Source of the DNA: Acidobacteriota bacterium
GTDB taxonomy: Bacteria > Acidobacteriota > Terriglobia > UBA7540
Assembly (NCBI GenBank): GCA_003225365.1
Contig: QHZN01000116.1
Span: forward strand, 1-42,631
Length of the DNA stretch: 42,631 bases
Reading direction: 5' to 3'
A program made the position numbers and the translations under genes. The notes beneath the pieces were generated by a model, which saw only the letters and a program-made list of their open reading frames with translations, ran no database searches and was not told the DNA's origin. Shown in pieces: positions 17,738-33,260 of the stretch. Position 1 is the first letter of the stretch. Each line of letters opens with the position of its first letter.

Positions 17738-17911
17738 GGTGTTTCGGCAAAAGTGCCGTGTGGCCTCCGCGCCTCGCCGTCAGTAATCAGCGAGGACTAA
17801 GAGATCGCCCTCGGGCCACAAGCTAAACACGGCCTGCTAAAAGTTAGCCGCTTAATGCGCCATTGCACCTCTACAAAACTTTGGCGCAGTACCTGGAGGA
17901 ACATTTGTCCC

Positions 17912-17933
17912 CCGGTCCGTATACGGAAACCGG
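17912..17933. promoter_or_regulatory. Nested palindrome upstream of the TIM-barrel operon
   Basis: A perfect CCGTATACGG palindrome (17917-17926) is flanked by CCGGT (17912-17916) and ACCGG (17929-17933), which pair with each other. It lies 66 bp before the GTG start of the TIM-barrel gene. It shares the GTATAC core with sites at 13715 and 3876 and is a good candidate operator for the nearby GntR/FCD regulator. The rest of 17738-17998 holds no gene I can support. Confidence 0.45.
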
Positions 17934-17998
17934 AAAATGGAAGCCGGTTCGGAGCGGGGCCAATATCCACTTTTCAATTTCCAGATGGGAGCGGTCCC

Positions 17999-18826
17999 GT
18001 GATTTGCACTAAAGAAGAGCGCCTCAGCCAACTTCGCGAAGTCGTAGCTTCGGGACGGCCCATCATCCGCGCCGGCGCCGGGACTGGCATTTCCGCCAAG
18101 TGCGCCGAGGCGGGCGGCGCGGATTTGATCGTCATTTATAATTCGGGGCGTTTCCGAATGGCAGGGCGGGGATCTCTGGCGGGACTCCTGGCGTACGGTG
18201 ACGCGAACGCGATCGTGGTGGAGATGGCGAGCGAAGTCCTGCCCGTCGTCAAGCATACGCCCGTCCTGGCGGGAGTGAACGGGACCGACCCATTTCGCGT
18301 GATGAGCCGCTTCCTCGCCGAACTCCGCGACCTCGGTTTTGCCGGCGTGCAGAACTTTCCCACCGTGGGCTTGATCGACGGAGTGTTTCGCGCCAACCTG
18401 GAGGAGACTGGGATGGGCTACGACCTGGAAGTTGAGATGATCCGCCAAGCGAGTGAGATGGGCTTGCTGACGTGCCCTTATGTTTTTTCGCAGGAACAGG
18501 CGCGCGATATGAGTCGTGCGGGAGCAGACATTATTGTGGCCCACGCGGGGTTGACCGCCAAGGGGACCATCGGCGCCAGGACAGCGCTGACCCTTGATCA
18601 AGCCGCGGCGCTGATCCAGTCGATTCGCGATGCCGCCGTGTCTGTCAACCCGGAGATCTTGGTGATTTGCCACGGCGGCCCGCTGGCGGAACCAAACGAT
18701 GTCGCCCTTGTGCTAAGCAAAACCCGAGGCATCGCCGGCTTCTTCGGAGCTTCAAGCATCGAACGGCTGCCCGCGGAACGAGCCATCATTGAGCAGGTGC
18801 AAAAGTTCAAATCGATTTCGCGCTAG
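17999..18826 (+). CDS. PEP-hydrolase-like TIM-barrel protein (Tm-1 C-terminal domain homologue)
   Basis: 275 aa, the normal length for the phosphoenolpyruvate-hydrolase-like TIM-barrel family. Diagnostic stretches are [98 protein letters not shown] and the C-terminal [12 protein letters not shown]. Members act on phosphoenolpyruvate-like compounds or are of unknown substrate; in plant Tm-1 this domain is fused behind a UPF0261 domain. The GTG at 17999 is chosen because a purine-rich GGGAG lies upstream and it gives the family's normal N-terminus (the longer frame adds 48 unmatched residues). A cupin and a UPF0261-containing gene follow closely, so the three probably serve one catabolic step. 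Confidence 0.85.
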
Positions 18827-18993: not shown

Positions 18994-19422
18994 ATGGCAG
19001 AACTACCCGGACTTCGTTTTGTACGGCCTTCCAACGTCGAGACCATGGTATTCGACTGGGGGACGATCAAGTGGCTGAGTGAGCCGGGGGTCACTAACAC
19101 GAGCGGGTTCAGCACGGGCGTCGTCCTGCTCGAACCCGGCAAGGGACACACGCGGCACAACCACCCAGGCAGCGAGGAAATCCTCTACGTGGTCTCTGGC
19201 GAGGGAAAGCAGATGGTGGATGTGGATGGGGAGTGCTGGCAGCCCATCGTTGCGGGCGACCTGGTACACATTCCTCCCGACATCTTTCACGCCACCATCA
19301 ATACCGGATGGGAGCCTCTGAAGATGATTGCGGTCTACTGCCCGCCCGGGCCCGAGGCCATACTGCGAACCTTGCCGGGGTGCAGGCTGATCCCGCCCAG
19401 TGACCCGCCCAGGCAAGCCTGA
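18994..19422 (+). CDS. Cupin-domain protein
   Basis: 142 aa, a single cupin barrel. Motif 1 is HTRHNHPGSEEILYVVSGEG (two His and a Glu as metal ligands), and motif 2 is AGDLVHIPPDIFHATINTG (the third His). The metal-binding set is therefore complete. The real start is ATG 18994, preceded by AAAGGAGA at a good distance; the frame extends upstream to 18850 without support. It lies between the TIM-barrel gene (167 bp before) and the UPF0261 fusion gene (35 bp after). A similar TIM-barrel, cupin and UPF0261 grouping would suggest an enzyme or sensor for the same small substrate, but the reaction is unknown. Confidence 0.85.
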   Translation: MAELPGLRFVRPSNVETMVFDWGTIKWLSEPGVTNTSGFSTGVVLLEPGKGHTRHNHPGSEEILYVVSGEGKQMVDVDGECWQPIVAGDLVHIPPDIFHATINTGWEPLKMIAVYCPPGPEAILRTLPGCRLIPPSDPPRQA

Positions 19423-19457: not shown

Positions 19458-22400
19458 ATGGAACGCAAGACGGTCGCGGTTATCGGAACGCTCGATACGA
19501 AGGGCGAGGAGTTTGCGTATCTGCGCACTCGCATCGAGTCGGCAGGGCTGGCCAGTTTGGTGATCGATTGCGGCGTTGTCGATCCGCCCGCATTTTCGCC
19601 GGATATTGACCGGCGCGAGGTTGCCGACGCCGGCGGCTACTCTCTCGATGATCTTGTTGCCGAACACGACCGGGGCAGCAGCATCGCGGCCATGGCTGCG
19701 GGCGCCGCTGTCGTGGTCGAGCGGTTGTTCCGAGGGGGAAAGATCCACGGGGTGATTTCCCTCGGAGGCTCAGCGGGAACCACCATCGGCACCGCGGCGA
19801 TGCGATCGTTGCCTGCCGGATTCCCAAAGATGATGGTATCCACGCTGGCCTCCGGAGACACTCGCCCTTACGTGGGCTCTAAAGACATCGCGATGCTTTA
19901 TCCGATCGTCGACATCGCCGGGCTCAACCGGCTCTCTAGGCGGATCTTGGGGAATGCCGCAGGGGCCATCGCGGGCATGGTGAACCAGGAGGTCATTGAG
20001 CCTCGGGAGGCCAAGCCTCTGATCGCCGCCACAATGTTCGGAGTGACCACGCCTTGCGTAACCATGGCCAGACACATCCTGGAGCAGCGCGGCTTCGAGG
20101 TTCTGGTCTTTCATGCCACAGGCACGGGTGGACAAGCGATGGAAAGCCTGATTGCCGATGGCTACTTTGCGGGCGTCCTCGATATTACCACCACGGAGCT
20201 GGCGGATGAGCTGGTTGGCGGGGTGATGAGCGCGGGGCCTCATCGGCTTGAATCAGCCGCGGCAAACGGAGTTCCCCAGGTCGTGTGTCCGGGTGCCGTT
20301 GATATGGTCAACTTCGGTCCACTCGATTCCGTCCCGGAGAGGTATCGCCAGCGGCGACTTTATGCTCACAACCCGACTGTGACGTTGATGCGCACGACTT
20401 CCGAAGAGTGCGCCGAGCTGGGCCGCATCACCGCCGAAAAGCTCAATCGCTCGCACGGCCCTGCGGTGTTTCTTATGCCCTTGCGCGGCGTCTCGGCAAT
20501 TGATGCTCCCGGTTCAGCCTTCCATTCGCCTTTCATCTCAAGACTTGGGCCGCCCGAAAAAGGTTTCCGGGATGGGCGGCGTCCGGGTTCCCAGAGGGTC
20601 GTCGAAGTTTTGTTCGTTACGTACTCCGCGCTGGTTGCCATTTTGAACGCGCACGCGGCTCAGGCGGTCCATCCGTCGGCGGTGAAGAATCGCGTGCCGC
20701 TTCGAGCGAACGCTTTTTATCCTCTGCCCCTCTCTTCCGTGAAACCGGCCGGCTGGCTGCGCCGGCAACTTCGGATTCAGGCCGACGGTTTGACTGGCCA
20801 TCTCGACGAGTTTTGGCCCGACGTCGGCCCGAACAGCGGCTGGTTGGGCGGCAGCGGCGAGAGTTGGGAACGAGGGCCGTATTATATGGATGGACTCGTT
20901 CCCCTTGCCTATCTGCTCGACGATCCGAAGCTTATCGCCAAGGCGAACAAATGGATCGGCTGGACGCTGACCCATCAAGGCGCCGACGGATCAATTGGCC
21001 CGCCGAGTAACAAGGACTGGTGGCCCAAAATGGTGATGCTGAAGGCGCTCACCCAATATCAGGAAGCCACTGGCGACCCCCGCGTGATTCCACTCATGGA
21101 GAAGTATTTTCACTACCAAACGGCAAACCTCAATCCACAACCGCTTCGGGATTGGGGAAAATTTCGGTGGGCCGATGAATTGGCCAGCGTGATCTGGCTT
21201 TACAATCGCACCGGCGATGGATCTCTGCTCGATCTGGCGCGCGCCCTCGGCGTTCAAGGCTACGATTGGAAGGCGCAATTCGCCAACTTTCCATTCAAAA
21301 CCAAGACGAGCCGCGGAGACTTGATGGCGAAGCCGGGGGAGGGACTTGCCGACCTGGCGTTGAGCGCTCACGGCGTAAACAATGCCATGGCGCTAAAGAC
21401 CTCCGCCGTGTGGTCGCTGGTTTCGGGCGATCCATCCGACCGCGCCGCCGCCGCCGCACAACTGCACACGCTGGACGATTACCATTCTCTTCCCAACGGC
21501 ATGTTCAGTTGCGATGAGCACCTCGCCGGCCACGACCCGTCACAAGGCACGGAGCTTTGTTCGGTAGTCGAGTCGCAGTTCTCGCTCGAGGAAATGATCG
21601 GCATTCTTGGCGAACCAGCATTGGGAGACCGCTTGGAAAAGATTGCGTATAACGCCCAGCCGGCCGCCTTCACCAAGGACATGTGGGCTCACCAGTACGA
21701 TCAACAACCGAACCAGGTGGAGTGCAGTCTTTACCAGCGCGACTGGACGACCAACGGACCCGAGTCGAACATCTTTGGTTTGGAGCCCAACTTCGGTTGC
21801 TGCACCGCCAACATGCACCAAGGCTGGCCAAAGTTCGCTGCCAGCCTGTGGATGGCAACTCCTGACGATGGGCTTGCCACAGTGGCGTACGCGCCAAGCC
21901 TGGTGGAGACCGAAGTCAAGGGCGGGGTGCGCGTCAGCATTCGGGAAGCTACCGATTACCCCTTTCGAGAGGAGATTCGCATTACCGTGAGTCCGGCTCA
22001 GCCTGTTGACTTCCCGCTGGTGCTCAGGATTCCGGGCTGGGCACAGCAAGCTAGGGTGATCGTGAACTCGAAAACCATGGAAGGGGTGCATCCGTCCGCG
22101 TTCTTCCGCATCGAGCGTGTCTGGAAGAGCGGGGACCTGGTGCTTCTTCGTTTCCCCATGCCGGTCCGGGTTTCGCGATGGTACCGCAACTCCGCCGTCG
22201 TGGAGCGTGGCCCCTTGGTGTTTGCCATGCCGATCAGTGAAGACTGGAAAAAGATCACCAAGGGAATGAAGAATCCCGCCATCGATCCCGCGGCAGACTG
22301 GGAAGTGCATCCCACGACGCCGTGGAATTATGGTCTGATCGTTGCCGAGGGTGCGGCGCCCACGGAATGGCGGGTGACGGAAACCCTCATCGGCGATTTC

Positions 22401-22598
22401 CCATTCAGCTCCGATGGCGCTCCCGTCAAGATCACGGTGCAGGGCCGGCGGCTTGCTGATTGGAAATTAGTGGAGGGGTCGGCGGGTCCGCTACCCATCA
22501 GCCCGGTGTCGAGCCAGAACCCCATCGAAACTTTCCGTTTGGTCCCTTACGGGTCAGCGAGACTGCGGGTCACGGCATTTCCACAATTGGACCATTAA
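19458..22598 (+). CDS. Tm-1-like UPF0261 domain fused in frame to a GH127-like glycosidase
   Basis: 1046 aa made of two unrelated halves. Residues 1 to about 359 are a Tm-1-like ATP-binding (UPF0261) protein: AVIGTLDTKGEEFAYL, ISLGGSAGTTIGTAAM, FHATGTGGQAMESLIADG, CPGAVDMVNFG, HNPTVTLMRTT and PLRGVSAIDAPGSAF. The family normally has some 40 more residues, which are missing. After a linker, residues about 384-403 look like a bacterial signal peptide core (VLFVTYSALVAILNAHAAQA). Residues 404-1046 are a DUF1680/GH127-like enzyme with Glu candidates in ELCSVVESQFSLEEMIG and the cysteine nucleophile region FGCCTANMH (Cys781/782). The signal sequence in mid-protein implies that a deletion joined two genes. 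An internal start (TTG at residue 385) is conceivable but weak. The frame is open throughout. Confidence 0.8.
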   Translation: MERKTVAVIGTLDTKGEEFAYLRTRIESAGLASLVIDCGVVDPPAFSPDIDRREVADAGGYSLDDLVAEHDRGSSIAAMAAGAAVVVERLFRGGKIHGVISLGGSAGTTIGTAAMRSLPAGFPKMMVSTLASGDTRPYVGSKDIAMLYPIVDIAGLNRLSRRILGNAAGAIAGMVNQEVIEPREAKPLIAATMFGVTTPCVTMARHILEQRGFEVLVFHATGTGGQAMESLIADGYFAGVLDITTTELADELVGGVMSAGPHRLESAAANGVPQVVCPGAVDMVNFGPLDSVPERYRQRRLYAHNPTVTLMRTTSEECAELGRITAEKLNRSHGPAVFLMPLRGVSAIDAPGSAFHSPFISRLGPPEKGFRDGRRPGSQRVVEVLFVTYSALVAILNAHAAQAVHPSAVKNRVPLRANAFYPLPLSSVKPAGWLRRQLRIQADGLTGHLDEFWPDVGPNSGWLGGSGESWERGPYYMDGLVPLAYLLDDPKLIAKANKWIGWTLTHQGADGSIGPPSNKDWWPKMVMLKALTQYQEATGDPRVIPLMEKYFHYQTANLNPQPLRDWGKFRWADELASVIWLYNRTGDGSLLDLARALGVQGYDWKAQFANFPFKTKTSRGDLMAKPGEGLADLALSAHGVNNAMALKTSAVWSLVSGDPSDRAAAAAQLHTLDDYHSLPNGMFSCDEHLAGHDPSQGTELCSVVESQFSLEEMIGILGEPALGDRLEKIAYNAQPAAFTKDMWAHQYDQQPNQVECSLYQRDWTTNGPESNIFGLEPNFGCCTANMHQGWPKFAASLWMATPDDGLATVAYAPSLVETEVKGGVRVSIREATDYPFREEIRITVSPAQPVDFPLVLRIPGWAQQARVIVNSKTMEGVHPSAFFRIERVWKSGDLVLLRFPMPVRVSRWYRNSAVVERGPLVFAMPISEDWKKITKGMKNPAIDPAADWEVHPTTPWNYGLIVAEGAAPTEWRVTETLIGDFPFSSDGAPVKITVQGRRLADWKLVEGSAGPLPISPVSSQNPIETFRLVPYGSARLRVTAFPQLDH

Positions 22599-22689: not shown

Positions 22690-22832
22690 AGGCTAGTGCC
22701 CCGAGTTGTATAAAGGTTGAACAATTCCAGACCGTGGGGCGTCCCGGGAGTCCTTTGCGGGCATTGTCCCGCTGGGTGGGATGAAACAGGCTTTTTGTAG
22801 TTCGTCGAACTTCTGACTCGGGACACTAGCCT
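22690..22832. repeat. MITE-like element with terminal inverted repeats
   Basis: AGGCTAGTGCCCCGAGT at 22690-22706 and the complement of 22816-22832 (AGGCTAGTGTCCCGAGT) match at 16 of 17 positions. The unit is 143 bp long and has no coding capacity of its own. If the palindromic CTAG at each end is a target duplication, the element proper starts TGCCCCGAGT and ends ACTCGGGACA. A CTAG target would fit the YTAR preference of some IS5-type elements, though no parent element is visible here. Confidence 0.5.
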
Positions 22833-23102
22833 TGGAGCGTTGCGGCATTCGTTGCGTAACGCGCTTTTGGCGACACGGGGACTGTCCGCTCACGCGCGAT
22901 AGTACCGGTACAAGTCCCGTCGCCCCAACCAGCCAAACCGGCGTCCAACAAGCGCAAACCAAAGTTGAACTCTTTGAGAAAGTAACCACTGGGCAATATG
23001 CGTTCCCCAATTATCGACAAATTTGAGGTCACTCGTTACTGGAGTGAACCCTTGGAATGAGACAGTCAGGATGGGCACACCTTGACGGGAAAAGAGCCTC
23101 GA

Positions 23103-23225
23103 GTGAAGCGGAAACGATATTCCCGCCAGATTCAACGAAAGGCTGTCGAGCACATGAGGACCTGCGAAGGTCCGGGTAAGTTTGCGCAAGAGCTGGGCGT
23201 CACGCGGCGTTGTCTCTGCAAATAG
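23103..23225 (+). pseudogene. Transposase N-terminal fragment (helix-turn-helix, IS3-type OrfA-like)
   Basis: A GTG-started frame of 40 codons reads KRKRYSRQIQRKAVEHMRTC, then GKFAQELGVTRRCLCK and a stop. This matches the opening of helix-turn-helix transposase proteins, which normally continue with YKW(R/K) and a coiled coil. The match ends exactly where the tryptophan codon would be, replaced here by TAG. Only the first third of the DNA-binding domain remains, so it cannot be functional. Confidence 0.6.
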
Positions 23226-28145: not shown

Positions 28146-28192
28146 GCGAAGCCATATCATTCAGGATTTCGGGGCCCTTTAGTATCCAAGGT

Positions 28193-28259
28193 CGTAGAGG
28201 CCGCCTTTAGGCGGGCATCTCGTTGAATCAGCAGTGCCGGGCTGAAGCCCGCCGCTACG
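28193..28259. repeat. Intergenic palindromic repeat with two hairpins
   Basis: The unit is bounded by CGTAG (28193-28197) and CTACG (28255-28259), which pair. It contains two stem-loops, CCGCC-TTTA-GGCGG (28201-28214) and CGGGC-TGAA-GCCCG (28238-28251). It fills most of the 115-bp gap between the two dehydrogenase genes and looks like a dispersed REP-type element. It may also attenuate readthrough or stabilise mRNA ends. Confidence 0.55.
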
Positions 28260-28314
28260 AATGCGCCCAAGCAATCACTTTATGAGCCCAACATCAAGTT
28301 ACAATGTGCGCGGC

Positions 28315-30747
28315 ATGGTTCGTCTTACCTTCATTTTGAGTTGCCTGCTTTGGGGCTGCGGCCTGATTCTTGGGCAGACTTCTCCGAGCACATTCGACCA
28401 GGAGTGGCGAGTTTACGGCCACGATCCAGGAGGCATGAGGTTTTCAGGACTCAAGCAGATTAATCACACGAATGTGAGCAAGCTCCAAAGAGCCTGGACC
28501 TACGTGGTGAGCCGAGGTACGGGCATTGAAATCGAGGCGCTCGAGACGACCCCTTTGATGGTGGACGGGGTGCTTTACTTCACCACCCCGACCAGCCGCG
28601 CGATCGCGGTAGATGGTGAAACAGGTAAAGAGATTTGGGTCTTCGATCCCTTTTCCGGCCAAAGCGGTTCGCGGCGTCCCGTGCCCAATCGTGGCGCCGC
28701 TTACTGGCAGGGACACTCGCCGCTCACCTGCGGGGGTGAAAAGGACGGCGCCGACAAACGGATTTTCTATGCCACCCTGGACGGTCGCCTGTTCGCCCTG
28801 AATCCGCGAAACGGCAAGCCCTGCCAAGGCTTCGGCGAGGGCGGAGCAATCGACCTGCGGAAGGGAGTTACGGACGGTTGGCCGCAAGGAATGTACGAGG
28901 TCTCTTCACCGCCCACCGTTTATAAGGACCTCGTCATAACTGGAGCGGGGCTGCAGGAGTTTCCCTCGAAAGGGCCGAGCGGCGCAGTCCGGGCCTTCGA
29001 TGTTCGGACGGGGGGGCTGATCTGGAAGTTTGACTCGGTGCCGCGTCCCGGCGAAATCGGTCACGACACCTGGGAGGGAGACGATTGGAAGGACCGCTCG
29101 GGAACGAATGTCTGGGGGATCATGACGGTCGATATGGAGCGCGGCATGGTGTTTCTCCCCTTCGGCTGCCCTTCCTATGATTTCTACGGCGCCGACCGGA
29201 AGGGCAAAGGACTCTTCGGGAATTCTCTGGTGGCGCTCGACGCAGCAACCGGCAAACTCCTCTGGTACTACCAGATGGTCCATCACGATATTTGGGATTA
29301 TGATTTGCAAGCGCCTCCGGCCTTGGTTGTCGTGCGCCGCAAAGGCCATGATGTTCCGGCCGTGGCGGAAATCACCAAGATGGGATTCCTCTTCGTCCTC
29401 GACCGCCTGACCGGCAAGCCCTTGTTCCCCGTGGAAGAGCGGCCAGTAGCGCAGAGCAAAGTGCCGGGAGAGGCGGCCTGGGCGACTCAACCTTTTCCCC
29501 TCAAACCGCCGCCCCTCGCCAAAATCTCCGTGACTCTCGATGACGTCACGACGGTCACGGCCGAGTCACGGCGATACTGCCTCGAGAACTTCGGTTCGGC
29601 CCTGCCTGGAGGAATCTTCAAACCCTGGGGCCTGGAACTCACCATAGAGATGCCGGGCACTCTCGGCGGCGGCAATTGGTCGGGGACGTCGTTTGATCCT
29701 TCTCTGGGATATCTATTCGTTAATGTGAGCGAAGTGGGCGCAGCGGGGTATATGCAACCACAAAAGGCTGGCTCTCCGGAAGCCTACGTCCGCGCCAGCA
29801 AGTGGGGCGGGTACGCGCGCTACTGGGATGAGCATCATTATCCGTGCCAGCAGCCCCCTTGGGGAGATTTGAATGCCGTCAATTTGAACACCGGTGAAAT
29901 CGCCTGGAAAGTTCCCCTGGGAGTCGTGGATCAGCTAGAAGCGAAAGGAATTTCCGAGACGGGCGTTCCCAATCTGGGAGGCTCCATTGCCACAGCAGGC
30001 GGCTTGGTTTTTGTCGCCGCCACGGATGATCATCGGTTCCGGGCGTTCGACTCGCGGACCGGGCGACAACTCTGGGTCACCCAGCTCGAATCGAATGGTC
30101 ACGCGACACCAATCACCTATTGGGGGAAGCGAACGAAGAAACAATATGTGGTTATCGCGGTCGGGCCGGGGGGATACTTCAATCCCGACACGTCTGCCCC
30201 ACAGGTTCTGGCGGCTTATGCGCTGTTTCCGAAGGGGCAGGCCCCTCGAAACGTGACACCACAACTCTCGTCCCCCGATGTTTCCGGGCCAGGGCGCGAG
30301 CCTCCGGAAATCAGCGCCCTCGGTAGCCCCATTTCGCAGCCGGTCCCGTTCAGTCACAAGCTCCACATGCAGGCGGGAGCGAAATGTGAGAATTGTCATC
30401 CGATTTCCGAAACTGGCGACAAAATGGGAGTCCCGGCTCTCAGCGGATGCCTGCAATGTCATCGCGCGGTCCTGACGGAGAGTCCCGCGATCCAGAAATT
30501 GGCCGCACTCTCCAAAGAACCTCAGCCCCCCTCTTGGGCGCAGGTCTATCGGCTTCCGGATTTTGTTTTCTTCAGCCATCGGAAACACCTGAACGCCGGC
30601 GCGGAATGCGCGGTCTGCCACGGTCCGGTACAAGACCGGGACACTCTCTGGCAGGAGAAGGAGGTTTCTATGGTCGCCTGCGTGGGCTGCCACAAATTGC
30701 GAAAGGCGTCCATCAACTGCGATCTATGTCATAACATCGGGCGTTGA
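28315..30747 (+). CDS. PQQ-dependent dehydrogenase with C-terminal five-heme cytochrome tail
   Basis: About 810 aa. A signal peptide starts at Met 28315 (VRLTFILSCLLWGCGLILGQ); an earlier ATG at 28261 lacks any Shine-Dalgarno site. Residues about 25-650 are a membrane-GDH-like quinoprotein propeller: EWRVYGHDPGGMRFSGLKQI, LTCGGEKDGADKRIFYATLD, GEIGHDTWEGDDWKDRSG, QMVHHDIWDYDLQAPPALV and TAGGLVFVAATDDHRFRAF. The last 120 residues carry five CxxCH sites (Cys691, 712, 765, 789, 802) plus lone His residues (PFSHKLH, FFSHRKHL) typical of bis-His cytochrome c7/c3 modules. The enzyme should pass electrons from PQQ straight into a multiheme wire. The stop overlaps the upstream reach of the hydrolase gene, whose GTG lies 15 bp on. 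Confidence 0.88.
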   Translation: MVRLTFILSCLLWGCGLILGQTSPSTFDQEWRVYGHDPGGMRFSGLKQINHTNVSKLQRAWTYVVSRGTGIEIEALETTPLMVDGVLYFTTPTSRAIAVDGETGKEIWVFDPFSGQSGSRRPVPNRGAAYWQGHSPLTCGGEKDGADKRIFYATLDGRLFALNPRNGKPCQGFGEGGAIDLRKGVTDGWPQGMYEVSSPPTVYKDLVITGAGLQEFPSKGPSGAVRAFDVRTGGLIWKFDSVPRPGEIGHDTWEGDDWKDRSGTNVWGIMTVDMERGMVFLPFGCPSYDFYGADRKGKGLFGNSLVALDAATGKLLWYYQMVHHDIWDYDLQAPPALVVVRRKGHDVPAVAEITKMGFLFVLDRLTGKPLFPVEERPVAQSKVPGEAAWATQPFPLKPPPLAKISVTLDDVTTVTAESRRYCLENFGSALPGGIFKPWGLELTIEMPGTLGGGNWSGTSFDPSLGYLFVNVSEVGAAGYMQPQKAGSPEAYVRASKWGGYARYWDEHHYPCQQPPWGDLNAVNLNTGEIAWKVPLGVVDQLEAKGISETGVPNLGGSIATAGGLVFVAATDDHRFRAFDSRTGRQLWVTQLESNGHATPITYWGKRTKKQYVVIAVGPGGYFNPDTSAPQVLAAYALFPKGQAPRNVTPQLSSPDVSGPGREPPEISALGSPISQPVPFSHKLHMQAGAKCENCHPISETGDKMGVPALSGCLQCHRAVLTESPAIQKLAALSKEPQPPSWAQVYRLPDFVFFSHRKHLNAGAECAVCHGPVQDRDTLWQEKEVSMVACVGCHKLRKASINCDLCHNIGR

Positions 30748-30761
30748 CCGGAGGATTTGAC

Positions 30762-33260
30762 GTGGATTCCACGGACCGAAGGCGGTTTTTGAAGGCAGTT
30801 GCGGTGGCCGGTTCAGGCTTGGCAGGAACCGCGGTTGGTCCGAATCTTGCGAAGGAAGCGAGCGCAAGAGTCAAAAGAGGTGAGTTGGAACTTGCGGAGA
30901 CTTGCACGGCGATGGAGGCCCCGCTTGCAAGGACCGTATCCACAGAACAGATAAAGCAGCTTGATTTTCCATCAGGCCAGCCCCTGCCGGGATTGCCTGA
31001 GACTCTTCCGTTGACTTGGACGGGCGACCTCTCCACCAAGATGATGGATGGAGCTCATCGGTATGCGGAACGGAAGATCGGTGAGTCCGTCAGGACACGG
31101 CAGAAGCACTGGAGTCGCGACCTTTCCTCCCGCCAAGCCTACGAGAGATCGGTTGGACCCAATCGCAGGCGCTTCATGCAGAAAATTGGCGTGGTCGACG
31201 ATCGCTTGCCTGGAGCCATGGAGCGATTCGGCGACGATTTCGCAGCCGGCTTGGCGGGCGAAACGTCAACCTACCACGTCTACCAGGTCCGCTGGCCCAT
31301 CCTGGAGAGCGTCCTCGGCCTTGGATGCGTGCACGGTGAAGGCCTGCTGCTTCAACCCAAACAAGCGCCGGTCGCGCACATCGTTGCGTTGCCCGATGCG
31401 GACCAAACTCCAGAGGAGCTCGCGGGTCTGGCGCCAGGCTTAGAAGAAGGCGCACAATTTGCCCGCAGATTGGCCGAACAAGGTTGCCTGGTAGTGATCC
31501 CAACGTTGATTGACAGGTCCACCCAGTGGTCGGGTCATCCTGAATTCAGAATGACGGATCAAACGCACCGCGAATGGATTTACCGGCAGGCATTTCAAAT
31601 GGGCCGGCACATTATTGGGTACGAAGTGCAAAAGGTTTTGGCGGCAGTGGACTGGTTTCGCAAAAAGGACGAGCATGCCCCAATAGGTGTAGCCGGTTAC
31701 GGCGAGGGCGGCCTGATCGCCTTCTATTCGGCGGCGGTGGATACTCGCATTGACGCAGCCTTAGTGAGCGGCTATTTCAACTCGCGCCAACAAATCTGGT
31801 CCGAGCCGATCTACCGGAATGTCTGGGGATTGCTCGAGGAGTTCGGTGACGCGGAGTTGGCAACATTGCTCGCGCCCAGAGGGTTGGTCGTCGAGTTCAG
31901 CAAGTCTCCGGAGGCGGTCAGTGATAAGGGCGACCTCGCTACACCTTCGTACCAAAACGTCATGGCGGAATTTGAGCGTATCGACGCTTTGCTCAAACCG
32001 GGATTTCAGCCCCGCCAAATGATAAGCGGTCCGGGCAATCAGCCCGTCGGCCCTGGATCGCCGGCGGCCTTGCAGGCCTTCCTCAAACTGCTCGGCATCG
32101 GATCGCCCGTTCAGCCTCCTGGCCCGCTGCCCGTGGAACGCCGCATGGCTTCCAGCCACCGAGAAAGACAGAAGCGTCAAGTGAGAGAACTGGAAGGGCA
32201 TGTGCAGTCTTTGGTGCGAAACTCCAAGCACGCGCTCGAGAGGTTTTTTCTACATAAGGCGGAGCCCGATTTTGCCAATAAAGACTGGACGACGAAACTG
32301 CGCTTCGACCCGCGATCGCCGAAGCCGTTTATCGAAGCCGCCAGGTGGTACCGCGACTACTTGTGGGAAGAGGTTCTGGGAAAATTTGAGCAGCCTCCTC
32401 TCCCTCCCAACCCCCGCAGCCGCAAGATTTATGATACGGAGACGTGGATTGGATATGAAGTGGTCCTCGACGTCTGGGAGGATGTTTTTGCATGGGGCAT
32501 CCTGCTTGTGCCCAAGGACATCAAGCTTGGCGAGCGGCGGCCGGTGGTGGTGTGCCAGCACGGACGAGGCAGCGTGCCCCCCTATGTCATTGAGACAACC
32601 GCTGAACGAGACTACTACCACCAATTCGCGGCGAAACTGGCTGATCGGGGCTTCGTGGTATTTGCGCCTCACAATCTTTACTGCGGCGAGGACCGCTATC
32701 GGTGGCTCAGCCGCAAGGCGAATGGGATCAAGGCGTCCCTGTTTTCCTTCATCATCGCGCAGCACGACCAAATTCTGCGCTGGCTGCCGACTCTTCCCTT
32801 TGTGGATGGCAAGCGCATCGCGTTTTATGGGCTCAGTTATGGTGGAGAAACGGCGATGCGTGTGCCATCGCTTCTGGAATCATACTGTTTGTCAATCTGT
32901 TCGGGCGATTTCAATCATTGGACTCCGAAAGTTGCCGCGACGGATGAGTGGTTCAGCTTCATGTACACCATAGAGTGGGAAATGCCCTACTTCAATATGG
33001 GTAACACATTTGACTATGCGGAACTGGCGTATTTGATCTTCCCGCGCCCCATGATGGTCGAACGCGGCCATCACGATCAAGTCAGCCAGGACCGTCTGGT
33101 TGCCTATGAATATGCCAAGGCGCTTTGGCTGTACGTGCAATTTGGCCTCGCGGATAAAACACAGGTGGAATACTTCAATGGAGGCCACACGATCAACGGT
33201 GAAGGCACTTTCGAGTTTCTCTGTAAGCATCTGGACTGGCCTCCGACTCGCCAGCAGTGA
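30762..33260 (+). CDS. Tat-exported protein with two alpha/beta-hydrolase domains
   Basis: 832 aa. GGAGGA six bases before GTG 30762 fixes the start, at once followed by a Tat motif (TDRRRFLKAVAVAGSGLAG). Two alpha/beta-hydrolase domains lie in tandem. The first (about 120-440) has IGVAGYGEGGLIAFYSAA, where the nucleophile Ser is replaced by Glu315. The second (about 530-825) is intact, with Ser692 in FYGLSYGGETAM, an acid near VERGHHDQV and His in YFNGGHTINGEG. The fold resembles dienelactone-hydrolase or acetylxylan-esterase-like proteins common in planctomycetes and acidobacteria. The active domain probably removes ester groups from a plant glycan or lactone in the periplasm. It follows the multiheme dehydrogenase directly, so it may hydrolyse lactones made by that enzyme (inference). 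Confidence 0.82.
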   Translation: MDSTDRRRFLKAVAVAGSGLAGTAVGPNLAKEASARVKRGELELAETCTAMEAPLARTVSTEQIKQLDFPSGQPLPGLPETLPLTWTGDLSTKMMDGAHRYAERKIGESVRTRQKHWSRDLSSRQAYERSVGPNRRRFMQKIGVVDDRLPGAMERFGDDFAAGLAGETSTYHVYQVRWPILESVLGLGCVHGEGLLLQPKQAPVAHIVALPDADQTPEELAGLAPGLEEGAQFARRLAEQGCLVVIPTLIDRSTQWSGHPEFRMTDQTHREWIYRQAFQMGRHIIGYEVQKVLAAVDWFRKKDEHAPIGVAGYGEGGLIAFYSAAVDTRIDAALVSGYFNSRQQIWSEPIYRNVWGLLEEFGDAELATLLAPRGLVVEFSKSPEAVSDKGDLATPSYQNVMAEFERIDALLKPGFQPRQMISGPGNQPVGPGSPAALQAFLKLLGIGSPVQPPGPLPVERRMASSHRERQKRQVRELEGHVQSLVRNSKHALERFFLHKAEPDFANKDWTTKLRFDPRSPKPFIEAARWYRDYLWEEVLGKFEQPPLPPNPRSRKIYDTETWIGYEVVLDVWEDVFAWGILLVPKDIKLGERRPVVVCQHGRGSVPPYVIETTAERDYYHQFAAKLADRGFVVFAPHNLYCGEDRYRWLSRKANGIKASLFSFIIAQHDQILRWLPTLPFVDGKRIAFYGLSYGGETAMRVPSLLESYCLSICSGDFNHWTPKVAATDEWFSFMYTIEWEMPYFNMGNTFDYAELAYLIFPRPMMVERGHHDQVSQDRLVAYEYAKALWLYVQFGLADKTQVEYFNGGHTINGEGTFEFLCKHLDWPPTRQQ

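Follow-up and report, generated by a model that had tools for sequence, protein, structure and literature searches.

A 3'-truncated UPF0261 gene joined in frame to a GH127-like glycosidase gene in a single Acidobacteriota draft genome

In one Acidobacteriota draft genome, we found a 3'-truncated UPF0261 (Tm-1-like) gene that continues in frame into a complete gene for a GH127-like glycosidase, and we regard this arrangement, with somewhat better than even confidence, as the scar of a recent truncation in one lineage, with the glycosidase still made separately and exported. In this reading, UPF0261, the last gene of its operon, would recently have lost its 3' end by deletion or recombination, and a separate gene for an exported GH127-like glycosidase would have come to lie immediately behind it and in frame. 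The UPF0261 part would be a non-functional remnant, and the glycosidase, presumably now co-transcribed with the operon, would still be produced as an exported enzyme of its own from an internal start in the region of TTG 20610 or ATG 20572. A long, clean in-frame ORF with two well-known domains would automatically be annotated as a bifunctional enzyme; the relatives speak instead for either a misjoin or the scar of a truncation. Provided that the junction is genuine, the locus offers a snapshot of operon decay by gene truncation, and the corresponding locus of a sister genome bears another scar of a different form.

The window, that is, the whole stretch of DNA that we analyzed (42,631 nt), is the entire contig C150 of a draft of 421 contigs and 92% completeness, whose nearest named relatives belong to the Terriglobia (Acidobacteriota). 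The genes of the locus are the following:

17855 to 18826, + strand: PEP-hydrolase-like TIM barrel (PEPh, PF09370), the usual partner of UPF0261 (Pfam, operon comparison)
18994 to 19422, + strand: cupin, the middle gene of the PEPh-cupin-UPF0261 operon (Pfam, operon comparison)
19458 to 22598, + strand: fused open reading frame of 1046 codons, the sole fused frame among the relatives sampled
19458 to 20531, + strand: 3'-truncated UPF0261 (Tm-1-like) gene, residues 1 to 358 (Pfam PF06792 and PF23189, DNA homology to genome G003)
20682 to 22598, + strand: GH127-like glycosidase, complete to the C terminus, with E699, C701, C781, and C782 (Pfam, homologue and structure alignment)

The fused ORF is a single open frame without an internal stop. 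Pfam entry PF06792 matches residues 4 to 177 (E value, 5.9e-66), and PF23189 matches residues 186 to 358 with positions 1 to 173 of the 218 in its profile, so that the C-terminal UPF0261 domain stops short. The remainder contains a GH127 catalytic domain (residues 475 to 794; 51.7 bits against a Pfam cutoff of 24.9) and a GH127 middle domain (residues 807 to 901; 70.2 bits against 24.2). As one open frame carries the Pfam domains of both proteins, the in-frame join described in the original prediction is borne out. So is the claim that the Tm-1-like part halts at FHSP (residues 355 to 358, positions 20520 to 20531): protein similarity ends at residue 358, and DNA identity with the operon of G003, a genome of the same family, ends at position 20519. 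Residues 1 to 358 align throughout with UPF0261/Tm-1-like proteins (PDB entries 9mpy, 3wrw, and 3wry); a literature search returned no paper on 9mpy, and the phrase "spurious gene fusion" likewise yielded none.

Complete UPF0261 relatives have 410 to 433 residues (410 to 429 in the same family), and compared with an intact relative of 410 residues, about 50 are missing here; the truncation had been correctly recognized in the original prediction, which put it at about 40 residues. The missing part bears the HIND-xx-FA motif, which is kept in the PF23189 domain of homologues and absent here, and in an alignment of 24 diverse homologues, N385 of this tail is invariant and F389 is nearly so. An AlphaFold2 model of the intact G003 protein (pLDDT 92.9) folds the tail into a helix (residues 357 to 370), a strand (376 to 380), and a second helix (387 to 409). 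In the model of the fusion, which rests on a shallow alignment and has low overall confidence (pLDDT 67.8), residues 359 to 395 and 397 to 418 fall below pLDDT 50, with a lone helix at residues 387 to 402, over the signal core. We found no frameshifted tail in any of the three frames between 20532 and 20760, no significant match to it elsewhere in the host genome, and no second UPF0261 copy in that genome. The tail was likewise missing 3' of the glycosidase within the window, where an insertion model predicts it, and this argues against an insertion. The loss of a near-invariant tail that has no significant match elsewhere in the genome, together with the absence of a second copy, makes it likely that the UPF0261 half does not work. 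This half is 83% identical at the amino acid level to its counterpart in G003 (L038), is under purifying constraint against it (dN/dS, 0.08), and shows no faster evolution than the other operon genes (19 v 13 unique changes in the UPF0261 half, 18 v 6 in PEPh, and 13 v 6 in the cupin). The lack of acceleration points either to a recent event or to a join that is not real; it fits a recent scar, and it also fits the absence of any scar.

The PF09370 partner and the cupin lie in the same operon as in UPF0261/Tm-1-like relatives. In the same-family genomes G003 and G007, the PEPh-cupin-UPF0261 operon ends with UPF0261, the order is the same in G301, from another family, and in G031 the contig ends within UPF0261. 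Of the genomes carrying the PF09370 protein, 97% also encode UPF0261 (PMC5028733), and thus the host operon is probably broken or decaying. Plant Tm-1, a natural fusion of UPF0261 with a TIM barrel (PMC5028733), resembles the present ORF in that another protein follows the C-terminal side of its UPF0261 domain. However, plant Tm-1 keeps a complete UPF0261 (PDB match to residue 428) and is fused to the usual operon partner, whereas the present ORF has a cut UPF0261 joined to an exported glycosidase.

We then looked for the same junction in related genomes, a check suggested along with the original prediction. The fusion occurred in none of 39 family, 399 class, and 396 phylum genomes (samples that partly overlap), and both proteins are encoded separately in every relative examined. 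In same-family relatives, a full-length UPF0261 ends the operon and GH127 is a stand-alone gene with its own signal peptide; in G003, the two genes are on different contigs. The same-genus genome G012 has a contig (C361) that shares FG-GAP, GH31, and GH127a genes with the window. On this contig (L152, 2849 to 3418), PEPh breaks off after about 50 residues, where foreign sequence is joined to it, and another GH127 gene follows the remnant in the same orientation. Since this operon is truncated in G012 too, in a different way and with the GH31-GH127 neighbors of the window again alongside, the locus seems to be truncation-prone, or unstable, in this genus, although G012 is itself a draft and its truncation counts as support, not as proof. 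By eye, a stretch near the PEPh remnant of C361 resembles the start of an amidase.

The glycosidase half is complete and has its cysteine motif, as had been claimed. It is intact to the C terminus, and alignment to GH127 structures showed the zinc ligands Glu-x-Cys and Cys-Cys with the nucleophilic Cys (E699, C701, C781, and C782), for which the mechanism is described in PMC10728902; the motif is common to the solved relatives 4qjy, 5mqo, and 3wkw (HypBA1). Stand-alone GH127-like glycosidases of Acidobacteriota match it over the full length with the motif conserved, the closest homologue being 66% identical and from another family. In our tree, the glycosidase half falls within Acidobacteriota and outside the clade that the GH127 proteins of its own family (G003, G002, and G007) form; given their different affinities, the two halves have different histories. 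The best match to a characterized NCBIfam, aceric acid hydrolase, scores 77 bits, far below the cutoff of 950, and both the characterized beta-L-arabinofuranosidases and the solved GH127 enzymes are distant. "Arabinofuranosidase" is therefore a family label and not an established activity, and both the beta-L-arabinofuranosidase activity and the substrate are putative, judging from sequence.

The signal-peptide core said to be trapped inside the frame is indeed present, at residues 385 to 403. The most hydrophobic 15-residue stretch of the whole protein is 381 to 395, followed by NAHAAQA. All close GH127 homologues examined have their own N-terminal signal, of the Sec or Tat type, whereas the core lies 384 residues inside the frame here, so that a product with an N-terminal signal peptide is conditional on an internal start. 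The relevant features around the junction are the following:

20532 to 20609, + strand: junction segment of 78 nt, with the breakpoint inside or adjoining it; no UPF0261-tail match in any frame, single copy in the genome
20572 to 20574, + strand: ATG that may be the native start of the glycosidase, 8 nt after a Shine-Dalgarno-like AAAAAGG (MGGVRVPRGSSK...); suggestive only
20610 to 20666, + strand: signal-peptide-like core from an in-frame TTG (residue 385), MFVTYSALVAILNAHAAQA (hydrophobicity, start survey, N termini of relatives)

The in-frame starts closest to the core are TTG 20610 and TTG 20643, the latter inside the core; the product of TTG 20610 would have a signal peptide without a basic N-region. 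ATG 20572 would supply a basic N-region and is offset from the frame of the core by one base, at TTTT 20608 to 20611.

For a truncation scar, we observed directly that the frame is open, that the tail is missing, that the glycosidase half is intact, that both genes are separate in every relative examined, and that the sister genome bears a different scar at this locus. Counting against it are the single occurrence, in a draft of 421 contigs and 92% completeness, the position of the GH127 half outside the clade of its own family, and the lack of a basic N-region in the signal peptide from TTG 20610. Among the readings offered with the original prediction, deletion or recombination with an internal start is the best supported, a chimeric assembly is possible, and a two-function protein is not supported.

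A chimera, which we consider a real but not a probable alternative, would have arisen by the misjoining of two loci of this or a close strain near 20532 to 20609, with the real UPF0261 intact and the GH127 gene standing alone. The fusion is indeed seen in one draft only, its halves differ in affinity (83% identity to G003 for UPF0261 alone), G003 has the genes on separate contigs, and the truncated half shows no acceleration. Nevertheless, the junction has only short chance matches in the host genome and no other copy that would invite a repeat-driven misjoin, and a displaced UPF0261 tail has no significant match on any other contig. Moreover, GC content and codon use are constant across the junction (GC3 of 0.707 in the UPF0261 part and 0.704 in the GH127 part), and the genes on both sides have same-genus or same-family relatives, those on the right matching G012, which makes a join between unrelated organisms unlikely. 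The truncation that G012 independently shows at the locus also speaks against a chimera. Promoter and terminator scans of the junction gave nothing informative, and an Rfam search of the window gave no match.

It is also conceivable, but improbable, that the junction is real and the frame join results from a one-base error or indel at TTTT 20608 to 20611, in which case the glycosidase would start at ATG 20572 and no fused frame would exist; this is a sub-case of the truncation scar, and the confidences of the two overlap. ATG 20572, with its AAAAAGG at 8 nt and its basic N-region, precedes KNR by 38 to 39 residues, and several relatives have similarly placed starts at -39/-40. However, chance produces a comparable start in 8% of shuffled fillers and in 3% of random local 78-mers, and a short T run is an unusual error site for short-read data.

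That the ORF encodes a functional two-domain protein, with UPF0261 in the cytoplasm, residues 381 to 403 as a signal anchor, and the glycosidase held in or released into the periplasm, or else with the whole fusion in the cytoplasm, is very unlikely: the long in-frame ORF, the constraint on the UPF0261 half, the intact glycosidase half, and the strength of hydrophobic segment 381 to 395 would suit it, and a membrane anchor can in principle follow a cytoplasmic N-terminal domain, but the UPF0261 half has lost its near-invariant tail and three secondary-structure elements, no relative conserves the fusion, and all close GH127 homologues examined carry their export signal at the N terminus. Judged on about 60 stand-alone GH127 homologues, about 15 to 24% of random joins would have the right frame and an equally long open lead-in, so the in-frame join says little and exceeds chance only weakly. 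The new two-function protein or cytoplasmic arabinofuranosidase first envisaged finds no support, given the loss of a near-invariant part of the UPF0261 fold, the occurrence in one genome only, and the retention of the export signal and internal starts. We find scarcely credible the version in which a shortened cytoplasmic Tm-1-like domain, a signal anchor, and a periplasmic GH127-like glycosidase form a genuine two-domain protein that couples sugar release to the catabolic enzymes of the operon.

Repeats also lie in the neighborhood. A dispersed MITE-like element of about 140 bp (22693 to 22836) with 14-bp terminal inverted repeats (consensus CTAGTGTCCTGAGT ... ACTCAGGACACTAG) starts 95 bp past the fused ORF, away from the junction; it has 14 copies in the host genome, with 72 to 86% identity to the window copy, and only end matches of ∼25 bp in G012, G003, and G007. 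The segment from 23039 to 23221, downstream of a TonB receptor gene, has no Rfam match and recurs with 79% identity on two contigs of G003 (C117 and C46). A second short intergenic repeat (28190 to 28268), with several further matches in the genome at up to 95% identity, lies between PQQ dehydrogenase genes. At least two PQQ-domain dehydrogenase genes stand in a row between 25596 and 33260, together with a further frame (30744 to 33260), and their order is rearranged on contig C8 of G012.
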